Shown here piece by piece: positions 50,663 through 64,000 of a DNA stretch of 64,000 nt. The position numbers and the translations under genes are program-made. The notes beneath the pieces are model-generated. The model was not told where the DNA came from and did no database searches. It saw only the letters and a program-made list of their open reading frames with translations. The stretch lies in NCBI RefSeq assembly GCF_021129305.1, contig NZ_JAJOMB010000010.1, positions 186,001 to 250,000 of the forward strand. Reading direction: 5' to 3'. The stretch comes from Kineosporia babensis. GTDB lineage: Bacteria > Actinomycetota > Actinomycetes > Actinomycetales > Kineosporiaceae. The stretch's first letter is position 1. Each line of letters opens with the position of its first letter.

Positions 50663-51622
50663 TCACTCGTCGAGGAGGTCCACGGCGAGGTCGAGAATCG
50701 GGGACGAGTGGGTCAGGCCGCCGACCGAGAGGTAGTCGACGCCGGTGCGGGCGTAGGCGGCGGCCACCTCCAGCGTGAGCCCGCCGGTGGCCTCGATCTC
50801 GATCCGCTCCGCGGTGGCCTGCCGGGCCTGCTGCACGCTTTCGGCCAGGACCGCCGTGGACATGTTGTCCATCAGCAGGAACCGGGCGCCCACCCGCACC
50901 GCCTCGACCGCCTCGGCCGGGGTGGTCACCTCGACCTGCACCGCGACCTCGGGGAAGCGCTCGCGCACCCGCCGGTAGGCCCCGGCCACCGAACCGGCCG
51001 CGATCTTGTGGTTGTCCTTCACCATCGCGACGTCGTACAGGCCCATCCGCTTGTTCGTGCCGCCGCCGCAGCGCACCGCGTACTTCTCCAGCATCCGCAG
51101 GCCGGGCGTGGTCTTGCGGGTGTCCAGCACCTGCGCCCCGGTGCCGGTCAGCTCGTCCACCCAGCGCCGGGTGTGGGTGGCGATCCCGCTGGTCCGGCAG
51201 ACCAGGTTGAGCAGGGTGCGCTCGGCGATCAGCAGTACCTGCACCGGGCCGTGCAGCACCGCCAGCACGTCGTCCCGCACCACCGCATCGCCGTCCTTGC
51301 GCAACAGCTCGACCCGCGCGGCGGGCAGCCCGGTCCAGGCCGCCACCTCGGCGAGAACCACCGGGATCAGCGGAATTCCGCCGATCACGCCCGGCGCCCG
51401 GGCCACCACGTGCGCGGTGCCCTCGGCTTCCGCCGCGATGGTCGATTCGCTGGTCACGTCATGCCCCGCAGCGGCCCCGGCCACCGTGGCCCCGCCGATG
51501 CCCAGGTCCTCGGCCAGCGCGTCGCGGACCACCGAGCGCACCCGCTGCGCGTCCAGCCCGGCCGCAATCAGCGCCTCCAGGGTGCCCTCGGGCCAAGCGG
51601 TTTCGGATTCCCAGCGGTTCAC
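50663..51622 (-). CDS. nadC: nicotinate-nucleotide pyrophosphorylase (carboxylating) NadC
   Basis: Quinolinate phosphoribosyltransferase: makes nicotinate mononucleotide from quinolinate and PRPP. The 319-residue protein has LAEDLGIGGATV near the start, ERTLLNLVCRTSGIAT near 145, the substrate-binding DTRKTTPGLRMLEKYAVRCGGG near 175 (DTRKTTPGLR, then KYAVRCGGG) and IEATGGLTLEVAAAYARTGVD near the C-terminus. GTG at 51622 follows GGAAGG by 6 nt; the much longer ORF is spurious. nadB ends 2 bp upstream. Confidence 0.95.
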   Translation of the reverse strand: MNRWESETAWPEGTLEALIAAGLDAQRVRSVVRDALAEDLGIGGATVAGAAAGHDVTSESTIAAEAEGTAHVVARAPGVIGGIPLIPVVLAEVAAWTGLPAARVELLRKDGDAVVRDDVLAVLHGPVQVLLIAERTLLNLVCRTSGIATHTRRWVDELTGTGAQVLDTRKTTPGLRMLEKYAVRCGGGTNKRMGLYDVAMVKDNHKIAAGSVAGAYRRVRERFPEVAVQVEVTTPAEAVEAVRVGARFLLMDNMSTAVLAESVQQARQATAERIEIEATGGLTLEVAAAYARTGVDYLSVGGLTHSSPILDLAVDLLDE

Positions 51623-51624
51623 GA

Positions 51625-53328
51625 TCAGCCTTCCAAGGGTTCGTACCGGGTGACGAGCTCGCCGTCCGGGTTCAGCCGGCTGATCAGCCGGCCGCGCCAG
51701 GCCGCATCGTCGCGCTGCGGGAAGTCCTCGCGGTAGTGCCCGCCCCGGGTCTCCTCGCGCAGGGCGGCCACCTGGGTCAGGGCAGTGGCGACGGAGTGCA
51801 GGTTGGTGGTCTCCCACTCGGCGGTCCCGTGGGCGATGTCGATCTTGTCCGCACCGGCCGGCACCTCCGTGCCACCGGCAGTGGAGAGCCGGGCCAGGCT
51901 CGCGGTGGCCTTCGTCAGGCCCTCCGCAGTCCGGATCACGCCCGGGCCGGAGGAGGCCGCGCGCTGCACCTTCACCCGCGCCGTGGCGGCGATCAGCCCG
52001 GCCGGACCGGGCCGGGGCACCGGCTCCAGCTGCGGTAGTTCCCCGCGCCCGAGCCGCGCGCTGACATCGTCCGCAATTCTGTGCGCAAAGACCAAACCCT
52101 CCAGCAGCGAGTTGCTGGCCAGCCGGTTCGCCCCGTGCACTCCGGTGCACGAGCACTCCCCCACCGCGTAGAGCCCGGGCACGCTGGAACGGCCGTCGGC
52201 GTCCACCCGGATCCCGCCGGAGTGGTAGTGCTGGGCCGGAGCCACCGGGATCAGGTCCTCGGCCAGGTCGAAACGGTGCCCGGCCAGGGCGTTCACGATC
52301 GTCGGGAACCGTTTGCGCAAGAACTTGCGGCCCAGGTGCCGGGTGTCCAGGAAGACGTGAGAAGTGCTGGTGGCGGCCATCTGCCGGACGATCGCCTTGG
52401 CCACCACGTCGCGCGGGGCCAGTTCGGCCATCTCGTGCACGCCGGTCATGAACCGCACGCCGTTCACGTCGAGCAGCTGCGCACCTTCGCCACGCACCGC
52501 CTCGGAGATCAAAGGCTGCTGCCCGCGGGCGTTCTGGCCGAGCCAGAGCACGGTCGGATGGAACTGCACGAACTCCAGATCGGCCAGTTCGGCACCCGCC
52601 CGCAGCGCCGCGGCAATACCGTCACCGGTGGCCTCGCGGGGGTTGGTGGAGGACTGGAACACCTGCCCGATACCGCCGGTGGCCAGCACGACCGCCCGGC
52701 CCAGGGCCGCCCCGACCCCGTCCCGGCTTCCCTCGCCGATGACGTGAAGGGTTACCCCGCAGGCGGTTCCGTCGGCACTGGTGAGCACGTCGAGCACCAG
52801 GGCCTGTTCCAGCACCTCGATGCCCGGATCGTCGCGCACCGCCTCCAGCGCGGCGATCAGCGCCCGGGAGATCTCGGCTCCGGTCGCATCCCCACCGGCG
52901 TGCGCGATCCGGTCGCGGTGATGCCCACCCTCGCGGGTCAAGGCGATCTCGCCGCTCGGCGTGAGGTCGAAATTCGCACCCAGCGCGACGAGTTCGCGCA
53001 CTCGCTGGGGGCCTTCGGTGACCAGGGCGCGTACGGCGTCCTCGTCGCACAGCCCGACTCCGGCCACCAGCGTGTCGTCGAGGTGCTCGGCCGGCGAGTC
53101 CTCCGGGGCCAACGCCGCCGCGATTCCGCCCTGGGCCCAGCGGGTAGAACCAGAATCGAGGACGGTCTTGGTCACCAGAAGCACCCGGGGCACCCGGCGT
53201 CGCAGTTGCAGAGCGGCGGTCAGACCGGCGATGCCGGAGCCGACCACGACCACGTCGGCCTGGCTGGTCCAGCCGATCGCCGGCGTGGCCAGCCGGGTCG
53301 CCAGCCGCACCGGCGAGCCGGTGCTCAC
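51625..53328 (-). CDS. nadB: L-aspartate oxidase NadB
   Basis: FAD enzyme that oxidises aspartate to iminoaspartate at the start of NAD synthesis. The 567-residue succinate dehydrogenase-like flavoprotein has the FAD motif [30 protein letters not shown] near 62, the active-site region [19 protein letters not shown] near 135, [11 protein letters not shown] near 255 and [24 protein letters not shown] near 385 ([12 protein letters not shown], then [11 protein letters not shown]). NadA is not in the window. The GTG overlaps the panC stop by 4 bp, so panC-nadB-nadC are one unit. Confidence 0.95.
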
Positions 53329-54176
53329 GCCGGGCCCCCGACCACCATCGGCAGGTTGTCGATCAGCCGGGTGGTGCCGACCTTGGCCGCGACCAGCAGC
53401 ACCGCCTCACCCTGGAACCACTCCGGCACGTCGTCCAGCGAGGCCGGATCGACCAGCACCAGGTAGTCGACCAGCACCAGCGGCTCGGCCACCAGCACGT
53501 CCCGGGCCGCCCGCCGCACCGCGCTCGGCCCCTGCCTGCGCACCGCCTCGGCGGCCCGCAGCGCCCTGGACAGGGCCAGCGCGGTCTGCCGGTCCAGCTC
53601 GGTCAGGTAGCGGTTGCGGCTGCTCAGGGCCAGACCGTCGGTCTCCCGCACGGTCGGCACGGCGACGATCTCGCAGCCGAAGTCCAGGTCCTGCGACATC
53701 CGGCGGATCAGCAGCAGCTGCTGGGCGTCCTTCTGCCCGAAGAACGCCACCTGCGGCCGGGTCAGATGCAGCATCTTGGCCACGACCGTGAGAACTCCGT
53801 CGAAATGCCCCGGCCGGGAGGCCCCCTCGAGCTTGGCCCCCAGCGCACCGGCCGAGATCTTCACCCCCGGATCTCCACCGGGATAGATCACGTCCGGCGA
53901 GGGCGTGAACACCAGGTCCACCCCTTCCCGATCGCACAGCTCGAGGTCTGCCTCGAGGGTGCGCGGGTACTTGGCCAGGTCCTCGTTCGGGCCGAACTGC
54001 AGCGGATTCAGGAAGATCGTGACGATCACGCTGTCGGCCCGTTGCCGGGCCCGGCGGACCAGCTCGGCGTGCCCGGAATGCAGCGCCCCCATCGTCATCA
54101 CGACGGCGACGGTGCCGGTCAGCTTCTCGCGGGCTACGGTCAGCTCGTCCCGGGTGCGAGCCACAACTGTGGACAT
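53325..54176 (-). CDS. panC: pantothenate synthetase PanC
   Basis: Joins pantoate and beta-alanine in an ATP-dependent reaction on the way to coenzyme A. The 283-residue protein has [15 protein letters not shown] (HxGH nucleotide site near 34-37), [36 protein letters not shown] and the KMSKS-equivalent LSSRNRYL near 185. TAGGTT lies 6 nt before the ATG. It leads panC-nadB-nadC. panB and panD are not in the window. Confidence 0.96.
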
Positions 54177-54182
54177 GGCCTT

Positions 54183-54188
54183 AACCTA
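54183..54188 (-). promoter_or_regulatory. -10 box of panC (leaderless type)
   Basis: TAGGTT on the minus strand, 6 nt before the ATG of panC; the same hexamer occurs at radA. Confidence 0.5.
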
Positions 54189-54232
54189 CTCGCCGTCTTT
54201 CGCCCACCTGCCGGCCAGGCGCGTGACGCGCG

Positions 54233-55147
54233 CTACTCACCCGGCTGCGAGTTCAGCGCCGAAAGCAGCGCCTCGGCACTGGTGACCGGCAGCCGCCCCG
54301 AGGCCAGGGCCCGATCCGCGGTGGCCCGGGCCATCGCCCGGTAGGTCTCCAGCGTGCCCTCGCCGTTCTCGCCCGTCGCCCGGATGGCCGCCAGGTGCGA
54401 GGTCAGGGTGCCCGCATCGCCCCGCGCCACCGGACCGGTCAGCGCGCTGTCCCCGGCCCGCAGCGAGTTGTCCAGCGAGGCCGACAACAGCGGCGCCAGC
54501 AGCCGGGCCGGATCCTCCACCCCCGCGTCCCGCAGCAGGTCGAGCGCCTGAGAGACCAGGGTGACCAGGTGGTTCGAGCCGTGCGCGAGCGCCGCGTGGT
54601 AGAGCCCGCGCATCTGCTCGGCGATCACCACCGGCTCGGCGCCCATCTCCACCACCAGGGCCTGGGCGATCGGCAGCACCGGGCCGGGGGCGCTGACCCC
54701 GAAGCAGCAGTCCACCAGGCGGCTCAGGTCCAGGCTGGTCCCGGTGAAGGTCATCGCCGGGTGCAGGGCCAGCGGGATCGCCCCGCGGCCGACCGCCGGC
54801 TCCAGCACCTTCCAGCCGAAGCGCCCGCTGGTGTGCACCAGCAGCTGGCCGGGCTGCCAGGCCCCGGTCTCGGCCAGGCCGGAGACCAGCACCGGCAGAG
54901 CGTCGTCCGGGATCGCGATGAGCACCAGCTCGGCGCGCTCCACCACGTCCGGGATCTCCAGCACCGGCACCCCGGGCAGCAGCGCGTTGGCCCGCTCCAG
55001 GCTGTCTTCGGACACCGCGCTCACCCCGACCACGGCATGCCCGGCCGCGCGCAGGGCCGAGCCGAGTACCGCCCCGACCCGGCCGGCCCCGATCACGCCT
55101 ACCCCGAGTCGGCCCGGGCGGTCAGCAGGATTATGGGTTTCAGACAC
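54233..55147 (-). CDS. Rossmann-like / DUF2520 domain protein
   Basis: A 304-residue NAD(P)-binding protein: RLGVGVIGAGRVGAVLGSALRAAG near the N-terminus (GVGVIGAGRVG), then VLIAIPDDALPVL, and a C-terminal helical DUF2520 domain (MRGLYHAALAHGSNHLVTL). The family resembles 6-phosphogluconate/ketopantoate-type reductases and usually lies next to panC, as Rv3603c does. A ketopantoate reductase role has been considered but is not established. GTG at 55147 is supported by TACTCT 6 nt upstream. Confidence 0.9.
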   Translation of the reverse strand: MSETHNPADRPGRLGVGVIGAGRVGAVLGSALRAAGHAVVGVSAVSEDSLERANALLPGVPVLEIPDVVERAELVLIAIPDDALPVLVSGLAETGAWQPGQLLVHTSGRFGWKVLEPAVGRGAIPLALHPAMTFTGTSLDLSRLVDCCFGVSAPGPVLPIAQALVVEMGAEPVVIAEQMRGLYHAALAHGSNHLVTLVSQALDLLRDAGVEDPARLLAPLLSASLDNSLRAGDSALTGPVARGDAGTLTSHLAAIRATGENGEGTLETYRAMARATADRALASGRLPVTSAEALLSALNSQPGE

Positions 55148-55153
55148 CTCCGC

Positions 55154-55159
55154 AGAGTA
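55154..55159 (-). promoter_or_regulatory. -10 box of the DUF2520 gene (leaderless type)
   Basis: TACTCT on the minus strand, 6 nt before the GTG. Confidence 0.5.
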
Positions 55160-55267: not shown

Positions 55268-56005
55268 GTGGGACGTCACGAACGCATTGCCGAACTGGCC
55301 GGCCTGGATCGACCGGGCCTGGAGATCGCCGATCTGGCCTCGGGGGCGGGGCGCACGGTCAGAGCCCTGCTGCGGGCCACCGCGACGACCGGGAACGAGC
55401 CGGGGCGGGTACACGCGGTCGATGCGGCCTCCAATCTGGACGACGAGGTGTTGCACGACGCCCGGGTCCGCTCCGTGCTGGCCGACCTGGACGAGCCGCT
55501 GCCGTTCGCCGACACCTCACTGGACCGGGTGATCTCGCTGAACGCGGCCGAGCACCTGGACGATCCGACCGCCCACCTGGCCGAGTGCTACCGGGTGCTG
55601 CGGCCGGGCGGGCTGCTGGTGCTGGCCCACAGCGACTGGGACACGGCGTTGTTCGCCAGTGCCGACGACGCGCTGACCCGGCTGCTGGTGGACCGTTTCG
55701 TCTCCACCGTGCCGCAGTTCGCCGAGCGGGCCGACGGTTTCATGGGCCGCAAGCTGCTCGGCCTGGCCACCCGCTCGCCGTTCGAGCTGGTCAGTGCGGA
55801 CACCTGGGCGGACTGCCACCGGCGCTTCGACCAGGGGTCGGTCAGCTGGAAGGTGGCGATGGGGGTCCTGGCCGCCACCAAGAACGATCCAGAACTGGCC
55901 ACCCGCGCGGTCACCTGGGTGGAAGGGCTGGCCGAGCTCGCGGCGGAGGGCAAGTTCCTGTTCGCGGTCACCGATGTCGCCCTGGTGCTCCGCCGTCCGG
56001 AGTGA
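55268..56005 (+). CDS. class I SAM-dependent methyltransferase
   Basis: A 245-residue methyltransferase. Motif I is LEIADLASGAGRTVRALL near 18-35, the acidic loop VHAVDAA near 48, motif II DRVISLNAAEHLDDP and motif III ECYRVLRPGGLLVLAHSDWD near 105. It resembles UbiE/MenG-like small-molecule methyltransferases, but no feature names its substrate. The GTG is preceded by TAGGGT at 6 nt. Its TGA shares one base with the ATG of the next gene, so the two methyltransferases are translationally coupled. Confidence 0.88.
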   Translation: MGRHERIAELAGLDRPGLEIADLASGAGRTVRALLRATATTGNEPGRVHAVDAASNLDDEVLHDARVRSVLADLDEPLPFADTSLDRVISLNAAEHLDDPTAHLAECYRVLRPGGLLVLAHSDWDTALFASADDALTRLLVDRFVSTVPQFAERADGFMGRKLLGLATRSPFELVSADTWADCHRRFDQGSVSWKVAMGVLAATKNDPELATRAVTWVEGLAELAAEGKFLFAVTDVALVLRRPE

Positions 56006-56865
56006 TGCTGCAGTGGCAAGACGCCTGGCAGAGAGCGCTTTACGGGCCGGGCGGCTTCTACCGGCGACCGGAAGGGCCGGCCGGGCACTTCCGGACCGCT
56101 TCGCACGCGGCCCCCGACGAGCTGGCCGAGGCGATCGCCCGGCTCGCCGTTTCGGTGGGGGCAAGCCGAATTGTAGACGTCGGTGCTGGGCGGGGTGAAT
56201 TGCTCACCTCCCTGGTTTCCCAGGATCTGAAAGAGCTTTGGGGCGTCGACGTGGTGGCCCGCCCGCCGGGCCTACCCTCGTCCGTCCAATGGGCCGCGGG
56301 GCTGAACGTGCTGCCGGACGAAGCCTTTGAAGACGCTCTGGTGATCGTCTGGGAGCTTCTCGACGTGGTGCCGCTGCCGGTGCTGGAGATCGACGAAAGG
56401 GGTTGCCCGTCGCTCGTTCTGGTCGACCCGAGAACCGGACGCGAGAAACTGGCGGGACCACCTCGTCCGCAATTTCGGCTCTGGATCGACGAATGGTGGC
56501 CGCCGGACGCCCTGGAGGAGGGCGATCGGCTCGAGGTCGGCCTGCCCCGCGATCTCTTCTGGCGCGACCTGACCGAGCGCGCCTGGCGGGCCGGGGCCCG
56601 AGCCGCACTCTGCGTCGACTACGCCCACACCCGCTCCGAACGCCCTGCTCAGGGCAGCCTGACCGGTTTTCGCAGCGGCCGCGCGGTGCCGCCGCGACCG
56701 GACGGATCGATGGACCTCACCGCGCACGTCGCCATCGACTCGATCGCCGGGACGACCATGTGGACCACTCAGGCCGACGCCCTGGCCGAACTGGGCGTAC
56801 GCGATCAGGAACTGCTCGACCCCGGCGGCCTAGGTGGGTTCGCCTGGCTGCTGCAGATGCCCTGA
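56005..56865 (+). CDS. MidA/NDUFAF7-family (DUF185) SAM-dependent methyltransferase
   Basis: A 286-residue protein. Motif I is IVDVGAGRGELLTSL near 58. The family-specific segments VIVWELLDVVPLPVLEID (the NELLDALPV block) near 115 and PDGSMDLTAHVAIDSIA (the QDLTAHVDF block) near 235 identify DUF185/MidA. In mitochondria the relative NDUFAF7 dimethylates Arg85 of NDUFS2, the NuoD homologue of complex I. A stand-alone nuoD-like gene lies 2.1 kb downstream here, so the same kind of target is plausible but inferred. The 3' end overlaps the convergent PH-domain gene by 36 bp. Confidence 0.85.
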   Translation: MLQWQDAWQRALYGPGGFYRRPEGPAGHFRTASHAAPDELAEAIARLAVSVGASRIVDVGAGRGELLTSLVSQDLKELWGVDVVARPPGLPSSVQWAAGLNVLPDEAFEDALVIVWELLDVVPLPVLEIDERGCPSLVLVDPRTGREKLAGPPRPQFRLWIDEWWPPDALEEGDRLEVGLPRDLFWRDLTERAWRAGARAALCVDYAHTRSERPAQGSLTGFRSGRAVPPRPDGSMDLTAHVAIDSIAGTTMWTTQADALAELGVRDQELLDPGGLGGFAWLLQMP

Positions 56866-58353
56866 CGCCTGGGGCCCGGACCTCTCCATCCAGCGTTCCG
56901 GGCCGGACGCCTTGCGCGCTTGCTCGGCCCGGATCGACTGCACCGCAATGAGTTCCGAGGCCTCGGCCTGATCCAGGTGCGAGGCGGTGGGCGAGACCGG
57001 GCCGGCGGTGGAATGCATGGTGAAAGACGCCAGCCCGAGCCGCCGCTGCAACGGGCCCTGGGTCAGGCCGAGGCTCTGGGTGCGGGCGTGCGGGACGATG
57101 TCGAGGTGCCGGTAGATCCGGCCGCTGCGGATCAGCACGGCCTGGTCGGTGACGCGAACCCCGGAGCGCCCCCAGGAGATCGGGTCCACCCAGCGCGAAC
57201 GCCTCGGCGCGGTGAGGAAATTCGCGGCCGGCCCGGCCCCGGTCAGGCCGGCGTCGACCACGTCCCACGGGTTCTCGCCCGGCCGCACCCCCAGATCGGG
57301 CAGGACCAGCGCGAGCACGCCGACCGCCTCGACCTTGGGCCCGACCGGCAGCAGGGTGCTGCCGGACTCCGAGTCGTTGTCGTCGCCCCCGTACCCGGCG
57401 ATGTTCACGTGCACCGTCCACCAGCCCAGCTGCCGCCAGAGCAGGCCCTGGCTGAGCCGGACCGCCTGCACCCGGCCCGGCGGCACCGTCTGGGTACGCT
57501 GCTCGAGCAGGCCGTAGCGCAGGCGCAGACCGTCGGGCGAGTCGGCGATCCGGAAGCCGAAGCCGTTGCTGAACCGGGTCCAGAGCATGCCCGCGGCGCC
57601 CAGCAGCGGGGCGAACGAACCGGCCAGCGGGCCCGGATGCCCGATCCACAGGCTGATCCCGGCGAGCACCAGCACCCCGCCCACGAAGCCGATCGCCGGG
57701 CCGCTGACCAGCAGCGAAAGGATCAGCCGGCCGACCGGGACCTCCAGGGTGGAGCGCTCGGGCGCCTCCGGGGCCTCCGGCCCGTCGTAACGCACCCCGG
57801 CGGCCGAGGCCAGCAGATGGTTGCGCAGCACCCGGGCGTCGTCCTCGCGCAGGAACGAGAGCGCGACGTTGGACTCCTTGCCGCCGGCCACCTCCACGGT
57901 GAGCCGGGCCAGGCCGAGCAGCCGGGCCAGGAACGGCTGCACCACGTCGACCGCCTGCATCCGGTCCAGCCGGGCCCGGCGCTGCTGCCGGAACAGGATG
58001 CCGGTGTGCAGTTCCAGCGCCTCGTCGAGCACCCGGAACCGGGTGGCCCGCCAGGACGCGAAGGCCAGGCCGACCCCGGCCAGCACGATCAGCAGCAGGA
58101 CCGCCCCGCCGCCGAGCAGCCAGCGCCCGGCCACGTGCGGGCCCTCGAAGTCGGCGTCACCGGCGATGAAGTCGTTGCCGAAGCTCTGCACCACGAACAG
58201 CAGCACCACGGCGATGACCTGCCAGGAACGCAGCAGCGGGGTGGCCGGGTGCATCAGGTGCCACTCGCCGTCGGCCAGGCCGGAGTACGCCGGCAGCCCC
58301 GGTTCCGGCGGCGGCGGTGCGGTGCTGGAGCCGGGTTCGGGCGGCTGGGTCAC
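56830..58353 (-). CDS. YdbT-like bacterial PH-domain membrane protein
   Basis: A 507-residue membrane protein with repeated bPH2 (DUF304) domains. After a Pro-rich start come a first helix pair (~45-105), a PH-like domain (TRFRVLDEALELHTGILFRQQRRARLDRMQAVDVVQP, given in parts: ALELHTGILFRQQRR and RMQAVDVVQP), a second helix pair (~205-255), and two more PH-like modules (RLRYGLLEQRTQTVPPGRVQ; IRSGRIYRHLDIVPHARTQS). B. subtilis YdbS/YdbT form the same pair and are linked to antimicrobial resistance. The GTG overlaps the YdbS-like stop by 4 bp. Confidence 0.9.
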   Translation of the reverse strand: MTQPPEPGSSTAPPPPEPGLPAYSGLADGEWHLMHPATPLLRSWQVIAVVLLFVVQSFGNDFIAGDADFEGPHVAGRWLLGGGAVLLLIVLAGVGLAFASWRATRFRVLDEALELHTGILFRQQRRARLDRMQAVDVVQPFLARLLGLARLTVEVAGGKESNVALSFLREDDARVLRNHLLASAAGVRYDGPEAPEAPERSTLEVPVGRLILSLLVSGPAIGFVGGVLVLAGISLWIGHPGPLAGSFAPLLGAAGMLWTRFSNGFGFRIADSPDGLRLRYGLLEQRTQTVPPGRVQAVRLSQGLLWRQLGWWTVHVNIAGYGGDDNDSESGSTLLPVGPKVEAVGVLALVLPDLGVRPGENPWDVVDAGLTGAGPAANFLTAPRRSRWVDPISWGRSGVRVTDQAVLIRSGRIYRHLDIVPHARTQSLGLTQGPLQRRLGLASFTMHSTAGPVSPTASHLDQAEASELIAVQSIRAEQARKASGPERWMERSGPQASGHLQQPGEPT

Positions 58354-58844
58354 AGCCCCGCCAGCCGGGCCTCGCCGCGGGAGGCCAGCCGGTCGCGTAA
58401 CCGGGCCGCCTCCTGAGCATTCAGCCCCGGGATGCGGGCGTCGGTACCGGCCGAGGCGGTGTGCAGCTGGACGTGCGCCACGTCGAACAACCGGTCGATC
58501 GGGCCGGCCTGCACGTCCACGAACTGCATCCGGCCGTACGGCACCACCACCAGGGCCCGGAACATCACCCCGTGCCGGATCATCAGATCGTCGGCCCGCT
58601 CTGCGTAACCCCAGGCCCCGACCTGGCGCCCGATCAGCCACCATTCCCAGGCGAACGTGGCCACGAGCAGCGCGCTGCCGATCCACAGCCAGGGGGTGAA
58701 CAGCACCGCGAGAACGCTGAACACAACCACGCCAACGGTGTTCAGCAAGGCCGCGATCAGGCGTCTGACCTTGGCCAGGCCCGGCGAGATCGGCGTCCAG
58801 ACCACACCGTCGGCATCGAACACGTCGCCCAGAGTCCCGGCCAT
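58350..58844 (-). CDS. YdbS-like bacterial PH-domain membrane protein
   Basis: A 164-residue protein with two adjacent membrane helices (about residues 28-75) and one bPH2 domain: [22 protein letters not shown], split as [14 protein letters not shown] and [17 protein letters not shown]. It is translationally coupled to the larger YdbT-like gene, the typical two-subunit arrangement. The ATG has no clear ribosome site; a TATAGGTAT sequence about 30 bp upstream may be part of the promoter. It diverges from the nuoD-like gene, 160 bp between starts. Confidence 0.9.
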
Positions 58845-59004
58845 AGTCGCAGGATGTCACACCCGCCCCGGCATACCTATAGGACGGCTATGTACCCGTC
58901 CCGACGCCCGGATCGCACCTCCCGGCGCCTTCTGCGGCCCGGGTATCCCGCTTCCTGCTGCCGGATCCGCTCCATCCGGGTGGATGCGTGACAGACTCGT
59001 CCGG

Positions 59005-60195
59005 GTGACCTCGACGGAGCCGGCGAGCAGCAGCACGGACCCGCGCGCGCTGACCGTGGCGCTCGGCTCCACCGGCCTGAGCACCTCCGACATGGTCCTC
59101 AACATCGGCCCCCAGCATCCGGCCACGCACGGCGTGCTGCGGCTGCGGATCGTGGTGGACGGCGAGCGGGTGCTGAGCGCCGAGCCGGTCGTCGGTTACA
59201 TGCACCGCGGCGCCGAGAAGCTGTTCGAGGTGCGCGACTACCGGCAGATCATCGTGCTGGCCAACCGGCACGACTGGCTCTCGGCGTTCGCCAACGAGCT
59301 CGGCGTGGTGCTGGCCGCCGAGCAGCTGCTGGGCACCGAGGTACCCGAGCGCGCGGTCTGGGCCCGCACCCTGCTGGCCGAGCTGAACCGCATCCTCAAC
59401 CACCTGATGTTCCTCGGCTCCTACCCGCTCGAGCTGGGCGCGATCACCCCGGTCTTCTACTCCTTCACCGAGCGCGAGGAGCTGCAGGCGGTGATGGAGG
59501 AGATCGCCGGCGGCCGGATCCACTACATGTTCAACCGGGTCGGCGGGCTGAAGGAGGACCTGCCGGCCGGCTGGCTGGCCCGGGTGCAGAAGACCAGCGC
59601 TTCGGTGCGGCGGCGGTTGCCCCGGCTGGAGGGCCTGATCGTCGGTAACGAGATCCTGCAGGCCCGGACTCGAGGGGTCGGGGTGCTCGACCGGCAGACC
59701 GCGGCGGCCTACGGGGTGAGCGGACCGGTGGCGCGAGCCAGCGGGCTGGACGTGGATCTGCGGCGGGACGACCCGTACCTGGCCTACGGCGAGCTGTTCG
59801 CGCCGGGTGGGCCGGGCCGGGTGGTCACCCGCACCGAGGGCGACTGCCTGGCGCGGTTCCAGGTGCTGCTGGAACAGGTTCACGTCAGCCTGGACCTGGT
59901 GGATGCCTGCGTGGACCGGCTGCGCTCACTGCCGCCGGGGCCGATCAACGTGAAACTGCCCAAGGTGCTGAAGGTTCCGCCGGGTCACGTCTACCGGTGG
60001 ACCGAGAACCCGCTGGGCCTGAACGGGTACTACCTGGTCTCGAAGGGCGACAAGGTGCCCTGGCGGCTGAAGCTGCGCTCGGCCTCGTTCAGCAACGTCC
60101 AGGTGCTCAGCCGGCTTCTGCCGGGAACCCTGCTCTCCGATCTGGTCGCGATCCTGGGGTCCACCTTCTTCGTGGTGGGGGACGTCGACAAATGA
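59005..60195 (+). CDS. stand-alone NuoD-like (49-kDa subunit type) protein
   Basis: A 396-residue relative of complex I subunit NuoD/NDUFS2, without other nuo genes nearby. GPQHPATHG (35-43) keeps both His of the quinone cavity, and HRG (67-69) keeps the Arg equivalent to NDUFS2 Arg85. Two cavity residues differ: the quinone-binding Tyr (RLDY in NDUFS2) is Trp91 in RHDW, and the Asp of HALDLGA is Glu143. The C-terminal [18 protein letters not shown] is family-like. GTG at 59005 is chosen because CAGACT, a variant of the local TANNNT box, lies 7 nt upstream; an ATG at 58984 is possible. Streptomyces has a similar extra NuoD2. Confidence 0.88.
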
Positions 60196-60259: not shown

Positions 60260-61459
60260 TCATTTACGGCACTTGACCGTGCTCGCCCCTTCGCCCGCGT
60301 TTCGCGCAGTGTTGTTGCAGCGCACCACGTTCCCGCTGTGCCGTTTCGTCACGTTGATCGCGTAGCCGTTGCCGCGCACGGTGGACCGGTTGGCGCTGAA
60401 CAGGTTCCGCCAGCCCCAGCCGTCCAGGATCTCGATCACCTTGTAGCCGTCGGCCCGCGAGTCCACCCCGATGTTGCCCGAGATCAGCCAGCCATTGCCC
60501 TTCACGTCGACCCAGCTGTCGCCCTCGGTCATCGCCGAACCGTCGAAGCGGTTGCCGTTCAGCACGCCGCCGCTGGTGCCCTCTTTGATGTCGACGTTCT
60601 CGGCGGTGGTGCCGGAGATCCGGTTGTTCAGGATGAAGTTGTCGTTGCTGGGATCGGGCTTGCAGTCGGTGTACTCGCACCAGTTGCTCTCGGCCGTGCC
60701 GATGTAGATGCCCTCGCCGAACTTCGGCTTCCGGTTGCCGGTGTCGCGGATCGTCAGCCCGCGCACCACATTGCGCCGGCTGCTGGTGCGCAGGTGCACC
60801 GCCTCGTCACCGATCCGCTCGACCAGGAGGTTCTGCAGGCCGATCCCGCGCCCGCGGTCGACCATCACCCCCTTCTGCCCGTTGCGCACGGTGAAACCGT
60901 CCACCCGCCAGTTGGTCGCGCCGTCGAAGTGCAGCGCGTAGCCGCCCTTGATCGCCCCGGCGTCGATCACCGCGTTGCGGCTGCCGCACAGGTAGATCGG
61001 CTTGGCCGCGGAACCGTCGCGGGTGGTGCGGAACTCGCCGTTGTACAGACCGTCGGCGAGCTGGATCGAGGCACCGGGCTCGGCCGTGTCCAGGGCCTTC
61101 TGCAGCTGGTCGCTGGTGGCCACCTTGACCGTGGCCTTGGGGCAGGTGAAGACCCCGATCGGCGCCTTCTTCCACTTGTTCACGGCGGGGAGTTTGGCCC
61201 GGGCAGCGGCGGTTCCGACTTCCTCGCCACTGCCGTCGTCGAGTTGCTCGTACTCCATCGCGTCGCCGGAGCCGTCGGTGCTGCTGCTCTCGGTCGGAGC
61301 TGGGGTGGGAGGCATCACCGGGGCGGGGGTGGCGACGGTTCGCTCGGCGCTGTTCTTCTCGTCGTCACCGCTGTGCCCGACCGCCCAGCCGGCGCCGAAC
61401 GTCACCACCATGCCAAGGGCGGCAGCGGCCATCAGGGGACGATTGACCGGGCTGCTCAT
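60260..61459 (-). CDS. secreted right-handed parallel beta-helix protein
   Basis: A 399-residue exported protein. The N-terminal hydrophobic segment (PLMAAAALGMVVTFGAGWAV, about 8-27) is a signal peptide or anchor, followed by a ~60-residue Pro/Ser/Thr/Glu linker. The body has pectate-lyase/NosD-like coils with strings such as VDGFTVRNGQKGVMV, LQNLLVERIGDEAVHL, RGLTIRDTG and FILNNRISGTTAENVDI. Four Cys in the body may form disulfides. It resembles AlgG/chondroitinase B-type carbohydrate-active beta helices, but no catalytic site can be named. It starts within the end of the next beta-helix gene (4-bp overlap). Confidence 0.88.
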   Translation of the reverse strand: MSSPVNRPLMAAAALGMVVTFGAGWAVGHSGDDEKNSAERTVATPAPVMPPTPAPTESSSTDGSGDAMEYEQLDDGSGEEVGTAAARAKLPAVNKWKKAPIGVFTCPKATVKVATSDQLQKALDTAEPGASIQLADGLYNGEFRTTRDGSAAKPIYLCGSRNAVIDAGAIKGGYALHFDGATNWRVDGFTVRNGQKGVMVDRGRGIGLQNLLVERIGDEAVHLRTSSRRNVVRGLTIRDTGNRKPKFGEGIYIGTAESNWCEYTDCKPDPSNDNFILNNRISGTTAENVDIKEGTSGGVLNGNRFDGSAMTEGDSWVDVKGNGWLISGNIGVDSRADGYKVIEILDGWGWRNLFSANRSTVRGNGYAINVTKRHSGNVVRCNNTARNAGEGASTVKCRK

Positions 61460-64000
61460 CGGCCCACCACCCGACGGCGGCGCGGCGGCACCGGGTTGCG
61501 GCGGGACTCGGCGATGGCCAGGTCGATCACCGTGGTGCCAACCGCCGGGGTCAGTTCCGGCGAGGCCGCCTCCCGGCCCTCACGCACGTCGACCTCAGCG
61601 TCGGGCTGCTGGCGCGGCCGGGTGACCTGGTTGCGCCAGTCCGCGGCCACCGGAGGCTCCAGGTCCAGATCCAGGGCCGGGCGATGGGTGGGGTTACGCC
61701 GCGGTTTCAGCTTGGGCACCGAACGGCGCAGCGTCTCGTTCCGGGCGACCGCGGGTTCACGGGTCGGCTCGGGCTGTGGTTCGGGGTGACGGGTCGGCTG
61801 CGGTTCTGCCCGGCGCACCGGCCTGGACTCGGGCATGGGGGTGGTAGCGGGGTTGCGGGCCGGAGTCGGCTCCGGGGTGATGGGGTTCCGGGGCGGGGCG
61901 GCAGGGTTGCGGGGCAAGGTGGTGGGGTTGCGAACCGGGGTCGGTACCGGGACGGCCACCGGGTTCGGGGCCCAGGCGTCCGGGTCCTGCACCGAATCCG
62001 ACGACGCGACCGGCTCGTTGGCCGGGTGGGGTGCGCGCATCGGCCGGGTGCCCCGGACCGGCCGGGGCTCCGGAACCTGTGCGTACTGATGCTGGTCGGG
62101 CCGATCGGGCTGGTCGAAGGGCAACAGGGTCGCGGGCTCCGGCTCGTACGTCCGCTCCTCACGCCGGCGCCGGTCGCGCTTGGCGGCCGGTTCTTCCTCG
62201 GGCTGCGGCATTTCGTACTGCGGCAGCTCGGACGGCTGAGGCTCGTCCTGGGGTGTTTCGTACGGCAGCTTCTCGTAGTGTGGCACTTCGGGCTTTTCGT
62301 GGGTCTGCACCGGGTTCTCCCGTTCCCGGGCGGCTTCGCTCGCCGGTGGGTGCTCGCCGGTCGGTCCGCCCTTACCCAGCAGTGGATCAGCCAGGTAGGG
62401 GGTTCGGGTACCGCCACGCCGGGGACGGCTCATCAGCAGCAGCAAAAGACCGACGCCGATCCAGACCATCGTGAGCGGATGCAGAAGAATGCTCAGGAGC
62501 GAGTCTTTCGTGACCGTCCGGGACCAACCGGAATCATCGATCTCGATCAGCTGCGGCTGGTCACCGGAAACCCGCACGGTGTCGATCGCCGAGGTGCCCG
62601 AACCACGTAACTGGTTCCCGTTGGCCACACTTCCGGCCACCGCCCCCACGAAGGTGAACGCGTGCAGGGTGGCGCCGGAGGTGGAGTTGTCCCGCAGCGT
62701 GGCCACCGCGTCCCGCACGTGCACCCCGGTCGCCGCGCCGATCACGTTGTTCGAGGTGAGCTCCACCTTGGACTCGTCGCGCACCTGGATCCCGTTGACC
62801 TTGGCGTCCTTGACCGTGTTGCTGCTCAGCAGGATGTCCTTGGCCCGGTCGGAGACCACGATCCCGGAGTGCCCGCCGGTGACCGTGTTTCCCTGCACGG
62901 TGAGCGCCACCCCACCGGCCACATGCACCCCGATCCGGCCGTTGTTGCTGCTCTTGCTCGTGGTCAGGACGTTGTTGCCGAACGGGCGGACCGCGGCGCC
63001 GCTGGGCGAGGGGCCGTCGGCCATCGGGCTGCCGGAGATCACCACCCCGTCGCGGCCGTTCTCGCGCACGTCCAGCAGATTCAGCACCGAGCCCTCGACG
63101 TTGCGGTTGATCACCACGCCGTCGACCGCCGATCGTTCCACCCGGACCCCGGTGACCGTCGCCGAGTCCACGTTCCGGTGCAGCACCAGGCCGTCGACCA
63201 GGCTCTTGCTGATCACCGAGTCGGTCACCCGGGGCCCGGAGGAGCCGGAGATGAACAGCCCGAAGGCGTTTCCGGTCATCGTGGCGTTCTGGATCGCGGA
63301 GGCGAACGAGCCGGACTCGTCCTCCTGCAGGGTGCTGGGCAGTTTGCCCGCGGGCAGGATGTCGGTGTGGCTGGTGGCCCGCTTGGCCACCGGATCGTCG
63401 GTGACCCCGGTGGCGGCGTTGCCGTTGAGTTCGGTGTTCGGCGTCGAGCTGGCCGAGACCACCGACACCCCACCGGTGCGCCCGCTCCAGAACCCGAGCC
63501 GGTTGAACTTCGTGTACGAGACCACCAGCTGGCCGCTGGCCCGCACGTAGGCCCGGCCGTCGGACAGCCGGGTGTCCGGCCGGCCGTGCGACTCGTCCCA
63601 GCTCTGGATGCTGATCGGCGCGGTCGCCGAGCCGTTCAGCCGGATCCGGCCGCCGTCGGTCACGATCGAGGTGAAACCCTCCGGCCCGGAGGACATCTTG
63701 ATCTTCAGCGGGCGGCTGGGGCTGATCGACAGCGTGGCCCCGGGCCCGACCAGGATGTGCTCACGCAGCAGGAACGAGCCGTCGGCCTGCGGAACCAGCT
63801 TGTCGGCGGACAGCTTTCGCAGGTCGGTCCAGCTGTAGGGCTTGCGCCGGGCGGTCAGCACCAGGGTGAACTGGCCGTTCGGCTGGGCCCGGTACGGCCC
63901 GGTGATCTTCTTCTCCTTCTTGACCTGGGCGTTCAGCAGCGCCTGGGTGACCCGCCGGTCCTCCCCGGCCACGATCTCGGCCTGCCGGTCCGGATCTACT
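61456..64000 (-). CDS. beta-helix surface protein with membrane anchor and Arg-Asn-Pro-rich tail, 5' truncated by window edge
   Basis: At least 848 residues; the frame stays open to the right edge, so the N-terminus is missing. From the visible N-terminus: a beta-rich region (GPYRAQPNGQFTLVLTARRK), then a right-handed beta-helix with many short repeats such as SNNVIGAATGVHVRDAVAT and GNTVTGGHSGIVVSDRAKD. A membrane helix (LTMVWIGVGLLLLLM) with following RPRRGG comes next, then a ~320-residue charged, Pro-rich tail containing several RNP units (RNPTTLPRNPAAPPRNP). The topology suggests an external helix and an internal tail. It is the first of a pair with the smaller beta-helix gene. Confidence 0.85.
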   Translation of the reverse strand, partial: VDPDRQAEIVAGEDRRVTQALLNAQVKKEKKITGPYRAQPNGQFTLVLTARRKPYSWTDLRKLSADKLVPQADGSFLLREHILVGPGATLSISPSRPLKIKMSSGPEGFTSIVTDGGRIRLNGSATAPISIQSWDESHGRPDTRLSDGRAYVRASGQLVVSYTKFNRLGFWSGRTGGVSVVSASSTPNTELNGNAATGVTDDPVAKRATSHTDILPAGKLPSTLQEDESGSFASAIQNATMTGNAFGLFISGSSGPRVTDSVISKSLVDGLVLHRNVDSATVTGVRVERSAVDGVVINRNVEGSVLNLLDVRENGRDGVVISGSPMADGPSPSGAAVRPFGNNVLTTSKSSNNGRIGVHVAGGVALTVQGNTVTGGHSGIVVSDRAKDILLSSNTVKDAKVNGIQVRDESKVELTSNNVIGAATGVHVRDAVATLRDNSTSGATLHAFTFVGAVAGSVANGNQLRGSGTSAIDTVRVSGDQPQLIEIDDSGWSRTVTKDSLLSILLHPLTMVWIGVGLLLLLMSRPRRGGTRTPYLADPLLGKGGPTGEHPPASEAARERENPVQTHEKPEVPHYEKLPYETPQDEPQPSELPQYEMPQPEEEPAAKRDRRRREERTYEPEPATLLPFDQPDRPDQHQYAQVPEPRPVRGTRPMRAPHPANEPVASSDSVQDPDAWAPNPVAVPVPTPVRNPTTLPRNPAAPPRNPITPEPTPARNPATTPMPESRPVRRAEPQPTRHPEPQPEPTREPAVARNETLRRSVPKLKPRRNPTHRPALDLDLEPPVAADWRNQVTRPRQQPDAEVDVREGREAASPELTPAVGTTVIDLAIAESRRNPVPPRRRRVVGR

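Follow-up and report, generated by a model that had tools for sequence, protein, structure and literature searches.

Inspection of a 64,000-nucleotide stretch of the Kineosporia babensis genome (contig NZ_JAJOMB010000010.1, positions 186,001 to 250,000; referred to below as the window) revealed a gene for an S-adenosylmethionine (SAM)-dependent methyltransferase of the MidA/NDUFAF7 type and, ~2.1 kb away on the same strand, a gene for NuoD2, a paralogue of the D subunit of complex I (Table 1). Two genes for bPH_2 membrane proteins lie in the gap, on the opposite strand. The initial annotation of the window had described a DUF185-family protein at position 56005 and a lone NuoD with an HRG motif at residues 67 to 69, and had proposed them as a pair formed by an enzyme and its target. 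The family assignment, the motif, and the distance were all verified, and the pair proved to be conserved and co-inherited. NuoD2 probably serves as the D subunit in a second complex I, devoid of the NADH module (Nuo2), with the neighboring MidA as its dedicated arginine methyltransferase and assembly factor.

Table 1. Features of the MidA-NuoD2 locus in window coordinates
Feature	Position	Strand	Basis or remark
MidA/NDUFAF7-type SAM-dependent methyltransferase, 286 aa	56005..56865	+	PF02636
NuoD2, probable D subunit of second complex I (Nuo2)	59005..60195	+	PF00346; GTG start
CGC codon, Arg68 of HRG, expected methylation site (equivalent to human NDUFS2 Arg85)	59206..59208	+	
TGG codon, Trp at position of quinone-contacting Tyr (Thermus Nqo4 Tyr87)	59275..59277	+	PDB 2fug alignment
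Class I methyltransferase (Methyltransf_11)	55268..56005	+	PF08241, 60 bits
bPH_2 (YdbT-like) membrane protein, probably a passenger	56830..58353 (ends approximate)	-	PF03703, 141 bits, 3 stretches
bPH_2 (YdbS-like) membrane protein, probably a passenger	58350..58844	-	PF03703, 60 bits
nadC, nadB, panC, DUF2520/Rossmann protein	50663-55159	-	

The MidA protein scored 49.1 bits against PF02636 (Methyltransf_28, formerly DUF185; COG1565), for a cutoff of 23.3, and was the sole match to this family in the genome (42.2 bits in the genome search). SAM-binding motif I is present (VDVGAGRGELL), its residues G62, G64, and L66 being invariant or nearly so across the MidA alignment. A profile search of the PDB revealed kinship in sequence and fold to the solved MidA/NDUFAF7 structures; a search with the single window sequence did not retrieve any MidA structure. 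The structure of MidA was reportedly described by Shahul Hameed in Cell Reports in 2018.

NuoD2 matched PF00346 (Complex1_49kDa) with 232.5 bits, in keeping with homology over the whole length. Among the NCBIfam models for NuoD, it fell below the cutoffs of TIGR01962 and PRK12322 and just exceeded that of NF004739/PRK06075 (364.5 versus 360). Translation from the GTG codon at 59005 to the stop at 60195 places HRG at residues 67 to 69; the reference used for alignments begins 24 residues later, so that the Arg is position 44 and the Trp position 67 there. NuoD2 displayed 40 to 83% identity with 24 other NuoD2 sequences, and HR was invariant in the resulting 25-row alignment. The genome contains another, ordinary NuoD gene on the same contig, within the ordinary nuo operon (G000:C2:165197-166063), which has HTG in place of HRG (GYLHTGIEK). 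The second diagnostic position is that of the quinone-contacting residue, Tyr87 of Thermus Nqo4 (PMC8042128), which is replaced by Trp in NuoD2; D subunits with this replacement are called W-type below. The combination of Arg and Trp was found in all 55 Actinomycetes genomes in which the DNA of NuoD2 was read (of 65 with NuoD2) and at 80/80 named loci, a set limited to the top 80 of a longer list and therefore favoring near relatives. The ordinary NuoD of the class had Thr and Tyr at 20/20 loci. Since Trp occupies the quinone Tyr position in every W-type NuoD2 read, the acceptor of Nuo2 is uncertain, and we do not claim that NuoD2 is a canonical quinone-site D subunit.

The survey of co-occurrence and distance suggested by the initial annotation was performed on 148 genomes of the class, with MidA detected by a single-sequence search (E value up to 0.001) and NuoD2 defined as full-length matches of at least 245 bits. 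MidA was present in 62 genomes and NuoD2 in 65; 59 genomes had both, 3 had MidA alone, 6 had NuoD2 alone, and 80 had neither (Fisher P = 2.3e-30, kinship ignored). DUF185-family genes were therefore far from equally common in genomes lacking the NuoD paralogue. Two of the genomes with NuoD2 alone contain C-terminal fragments of MidA at contig ends (G018 and G113), and a profile search of the four others (G100, G110, G120, and G138) did not yield any real MidA. Two of the three genomes with MidA alone (G066 and G146; loci L072 and L073) retain a remnant of the protein, adjoining DUF2520-panC-nadB, in which the N- and C-terminal blocks are kept and the SAM-binding motif is gone; the frame in G146, scanned alone, scores below the PF02636 cutoff. 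Both genomes are devoid of NuoD2 and of any NuoB2-type match, which supports the link between MidA and NuoD2.

The two genes were located on one contig in 57/59 pairs and on different contigs in the other two. All 57 same-contig pairs had the matched stretches within 11 kb (70 bp to 11 kb apart, 56 at less than 10 kb). Among the named loci, which include Streptomyces, Terrabacter, Janibacter, Nonomuraea, and Flexivirga, MidA was found at most 7.5 kb from NuoD2 in 75/80 (median, 3.0 kb); at the remaining five, NuoD2 was at most 2.6 kb from a contig end. Genera with both genes and genera with neither were found within a single family, f4 (G042 and G111 versus G069), and likewise within f19. The pairwise distances of MidA correlated with those of NuoD2 (r = 0.82, 38 loci, i.e., that of the window plus 37 from the named set of 80; 0/2000 permutations).

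The description of NuoD2 as a lone protein had to be abandoned, because partner Nuo2 subunits are encoded in the same genome. Searches with PF01058 and PF00146 revealed a second NuoB at G000:C2:137620 and a second NuoH at 138899, 20 to 30 kb from the ordinary copies. These belong to a cluster extending from ~124.2 to 139.8 kb of this contig, with NuoA2-B2-C2-H2 on one strand and I2-J2-K2-L2-M2-N2 on the other (A2, C2, H2, I2, J2, K2, and L2 identified by Pfam, B2 by PF01058, and M2 and N2 by homology). The cluster does not contain any D gene; NuoD2, at 245.0 kb, lies 105 to 121 kb away on the same contig, the cluster being located outside the window. Together, these genes encode the 11-subunit set A, B, C, D, and H to N, and subunits E, F, and G are not encoded in the cluster, the search for them having covered clusters and not whole genomes. 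Genes for the 2-oxoacid:ferredoxin oxidoreductase KorA/KorB adjoin the Nuo2 genes in this genome; overall, they were observed in 7 of the 18 fetched Nuo2 stretches (L159:15006-18016, L162, L163, L168, L169, L171, and L175; KorA of L171 was covered in part only). Several Nuo2 clusters are also bordered, on the N2 side, by a gene for an M48 peptidase (L161:2597-3592, L359:11066-11944, and others).

NuoB2 and NuoD2 were both present in 62 of the 148 class genomes, with NuoB2 alone in 1 (G004), NuoD2 alone in 3, and neither in 82, counts that depend on a NuoB2 cutoff of 157 bits (ordinary NuoB, at most 155) chosen after the list had been inspected. Of the three genomes with NuoD2 alone, G005 and G029 have a partial NuoB2 at contig ends, and G147 is ambiguous. 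Of 20 context windows fetched from genomes outside the class, 8 contained A2-B2-C2-D2-H2-I2-J2-K2-L2-M2-N2, in this order and on a single strand, whereas the remaining 12 had been cut elsewhere or had a partial Nuo2 or none. MidA was found 0.2 to 4.0 kb past NuoN2, on the same strand, in 7/7 of these full clusters whose genome has MidA. Within the class, NuoD2 still adjoins NuoN2 at loci L098 and L293. A quick tree, built from 114 D subunits and having several long branches, placed NuoD2 with the D subunits encoded inside Nuo2 clusters; W-type NuoD2 formed one group, with a single W/Y label change, and the NuoD2 of the class formed one clade (support, 100). By the same tree, the presence of MidA required 9 changes.

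The gene order outside the class also bears on the pan/nad genes. DUF2520-panC-nadB-nadC recur beside MidA and NuoD2 in Actinomycetes, as would be expected if the adjacency of the two genes were passive linkage at this locus. The outer-class windows with a full Nuo2 have MidA at the cluster end and, by tblastn, no pan/nad gene, and the presence and absence of MidA and NuoD2 match across genomes, beyond their position. Passive linkage is therefore already largely refuted, and we regard it as extremely improbable. The recurrence of the pan/nad genes includes MidA-less loci, and these genes were rejected as functional partners because the outer-class windows containing a complete Nuo2 did not reveal any of them.

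The arginine of NuoD2 occupies a position at which complex I is known to differ between organisms. The NDUFS2 and NDUFS7 subunits of Yarrowia have Arg121 and Thr122, respectively; in Thermus, Thr is found in Nqo4 and the arginine, Arg83, in Nqo6. Both arginines occupy the same space beside cluster N2, an arrangement described as an intersubunit switch (PMC8042128). Ordinary NuoB had Arg (AGRV) at 16/16 loci, facing the HTG of ordinary NuoD; in the genome of K. babensis, this AGR aligns with the AGR of Thermus Nqo6, in which R is residue 83. NuoB2, in turn, had Thr in 16/16 alignment rows and in 8/8 outer-class operons, aligning with the AGT of mitochondrial NDUFS7 chains, and NuoD2 had Arg. 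The swap known between Yarrowia and Thermus is thus present within single Actinomycetes genomes, which contain one complex with Thr on D and Arg on B and another with Arg on D and Thr on B. This reciprocal swap ties NuoD2 to NuoB2 rather than to NuoB1, and only NuoD2 would need MidA, since the ordinary pair has Thr on D and Arg on B.

The swap also argues against considering NuoD2 as an alternative D subunit of, or a decoy for, ordinary complex I, swapped in under certain conditions. Papers on Streptomyces discuss L2 and M2 as alternative antiporter subunits and propose their exchange into complex I (PMC3765725 and PMC8388888), and nearly all genomes with NuoD2 also have the ordinary NuoD. Yet NuoB1 already has the swap-position Arg, so that pairing it with NuoD2 would place two arginines in a space that a single one fills in known enzymes, and 8 context windows show D2 within a full Nuo2 cluster, flanked by C2 and H2. 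Moreover, genome G111, rated 100% complete, has one copy each of NuoB, NuoH, and NuoD, every one belonging to the Nuo2 type, together with MidA and an A2-to-N2 cluster without D; ordinary NuoB, NuoD, and NuoH are absent. We consequently consider a role of NuoD2 in the ordinary complex to be very unlikely.

The relationship between MidA and the arginine was further evaluated in a phylum sample of 248 genomes. W-type NuoD2 outside the class had Arg in 66/66 genomes, MidA being present in 42 and absent from 24 according to the A2 profile or PF02636. In the whole sample, 58 genomes had both MidA and W-type NuoD2, 8 had MidA alone, 24 had NuoD2 alone, and 158 had neither. Among the 66 genomes with MidA, a NuoD was read for 60, the exceptions being G282 and five members of the class; it had Arg in 58 cases and Thr in the other 2. 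MidA is thus accompanied almost without exception by a NuoD with arginine, but the arginine outlives the enzyme; the presence of Arg was accordingly rejected as a proxy for MidA, since it fails in a MidA-less clade of 23 genomes.

Several of these observations weigh against a methylated NuoD2 served by MidA. All 24 W-type NuoD2 genomes without detectable MidA retain Arg, 23 of them forming the clade just mentioned (support, 94), and so do G100, G110, G120, and G138 within the class. Conversely, MidA occurs without W-type NuoD2 in G149, G172, G181, G213, G278, G282, G293, and G312. Among the seven of these in which NuoD was read, five have Arg and Tyr (G149, G172, G181, G278, and G312) and two have Thr and Tyr, in an HTG motif (G213 and G293); G213 contains two PF02636 genes (L277 and L278), its best NuoD being of the HTG type. 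In the class, no NuoD2 was seen in G059, the MidA gene of which lies close to a contig end. The co-occurrence counts are phylogenetically nonindependent, and the NuoB2 cutoff was set post hoc, as stated above. E. coli keeps the Arg unmethylated, according to PMC3750175, and the methyl group on Arg68 of NuoD2 is predicted from sequence rather than observed. Finally, Trp at the quinone Tyr position leaves quinone reduction by Nuo2 in doubt.

The exceptions for MidA would be accounted for if Arg68 were kept for the geometry of cluster N2 alone and MidA acted on another substrate, the genes being merely co-inherited. The retention of Arg by the 23-genome clade and by the four class genomes, the unmethylated Arg of E. 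coli, and the two MidA copies of G213 alongside an HTG NuoD all fit this explanation, and a 2025 paper asks whether MidA of Wolbachia shapes gene expression (PMC12455994). However, the literature consulted on NDUFAF7 names as its substrate this very arginine of the HRG motif (PMC3829151 and PMC9006661), MidA follows NuoN2 in all seven complete clusters from genomes with MidA, the two NuoD2-less genomes G066 and G146 keep just a remnant without the SAM motif, and Arg NuoD accompanies MidA in 58 of the 60 phylum genomes read. Another substrate for MidA therefore appears improbable, albeit less so than the other alternatives.

Action of MidA on NuoD2 would parallel the mitochondrial system, in which NDUFAF7 dimethylates Arg85 of NDUFS2 during assembly (PMC3829151). 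The bovine dimethylated peptide KCDPHIGLLHRGTEK is modified at Arg85, in the context LLHRGTEK; at the same site, Thermus has Thr, and Arg65 of Paracoccus is symmetrically dimethylated (PMC3750175). In Yarrowia, mutants of Arg121 lose cluster N2, and the role of the methyl groups, apart from that of the arginine itself, is described as still open (PMC8042128). By analogy, MidA would symmetrically dimethylate Arg68 of NuoD2, next to cluster N2 of NuoB2, before or during docking on NuoB2, and this modification may help to fasten D2 to B2 while the complex is being assembled, in the manner of NDUFAF7 and NDUFS2. MidA would not be needed by the ordinary complex I, since its NuoD has Thr at this site and the arginine is located on NuoB. 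Electrons would probably reach Nuo2 through NuoI2 from a ferredoxin reduced by the adjoining 2-oxoacid:ferredoxin oxidoreductase. In Actinomycetes, nuoD2 would have moved away from the other nuo2 genes, to its present place beside the pan/nad biosynthesis genes.

MidA and NuoD2 resemble NDUFAF7 and NDUFS2 Arg85, as well as Paracoccus Nqo4 Arg65, in the family and fold of the methyltransferase and in the HRG motif beside N2. Mitochondrial complex I also has Thr at the swap position of NDUFS7 (Yarrowia Thr122, PMC8042128; AGT chains). In contrast to NDUFS2, the target belongs here to a second complex I lacking the NADH module, the ordinary complex being Thermus-like and presumably MidA independent; the gene for the enzyme adjoins that of the target or ends its cluster; and the quinone Tyr is replaced by Trp. 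NuoD1 and NuoB1 of the same genome have the Thr/Arg arrangement of Thermus Nqo4 and Nqo6, whereas NuoD2 and NuoB2 have the reverse, i.e., mitochondrial, arrangement. A second nuo cluster is described in Streptomyces, with nuoA2, nuoB2, and nuoH2 to nuoN2 together and nuoD2 encoded apart (PMC3765725 and PMC8388888), as in K. babensis. These descriptions, as far as the cluster is covered in them, name neither MidA nor the Arg/Thr swap nor nuoC2, whereas NuoC2 lies here between B2 and H2. Nuo2 also shares the set A, B, C, D, and H to N, without E, F, and G, with the 11-subunit enzymes, i.e., that of Desulfitobacterium, for which a model with ferredoxin as the donor is proposed (PMC11238625), and NDH-1 of cyanobacteria and chloroplasts. 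It differs from them by Trp in place of the quinone Tyr, the attachment of MidA, the split gene order in Actinomycetes, and the apparent lack of a membrane arm in some lineages.

A complete Nuo2-type NuoH was not found in 9 of 18 NuoD2 genomes tested, which were picked rather than drawn at random. The fetched Nuo2 clusters of these nine genomes hold B2, C2, and I2 (L162-L168, L172, and L175) and retain the four cysteines of NuoB (CC/C/C); MidA was present in 5/9 and KorAB lay alongside in 4/9. In divergent reduced NuoB2 proteins, the stretch following CC, which we take to face the quinone channel, is degraded. G026 (L172) retains a fragment of NuoH2, so the loss looks recent there. Several lineages, as judged by NuoH, may thus have lost the Nuo2 membrane arm, B2-C2-I2 and NuoD2 forming a soluble ferredoxin-linked redox enzyme derived from the Q-module of complex I, which would have kept a methylated Arg beside N2 and replaced the quinone Tyr, its acceptor being uncertain. 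We put this forward tentatively, as a possibility less probable than its converse.

Among the remaining genes of the window, the stop codon of the Methyltransf_11 gene overlaps the start codon of midA (TGATG, 56003-56007), and the two genes are probably cotranslated because of this overlap. The Methyltransf_11 neighbor was present at 2/40 other class loci (L085 and L088) and is lineage specific. The PH membrane proteins, which the initial annotation had tentatively placed in the same neighborhood, look like passengers; each had homologues at 21/80 named loci, and they were rejected as members of the system. A right-handed beta-helix (NosD-like) protein of 838 residues with a long proline-rich tail is encoded at window positions 61456-63972.

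The proposal of a bacterial pair of enzyme and target, as a simple model of this assembly step, is supported in part, in that the pair of MidA and an HRG NuoD recurs; a bacterial setting had already been published, that of Paracoccus (PMC3750175). The Streptomyces nuo2 and nuoD2 genes are also in print, and the link to MidA appears to be the new element, since no connection of MidA with Nuo2 or nuoD2 was found in the open-licence full-text literature, as far as its texts were covered. Streptomyces nuoD2 thereby gains a place and a partner, and the actinobacterial branch of MidA becomes tied to complex I. In many soil bacteria, a single cell contains both solutions, the ordinary complex with Thr on D and Arg on B and the second complex with Arg on D, Thr on B, and a methyltransferase of its own, which amounts to a natural test of the modification. 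The lineage of 23 genomes that keeps Arg without MidA, and G111, which has the second complex alone, offer ready-made comparisons. MidA and Nuo2 are probably dispensable where the ordinary complex stays, and deletions and site swaps may therefore be feasible without killing the cell.

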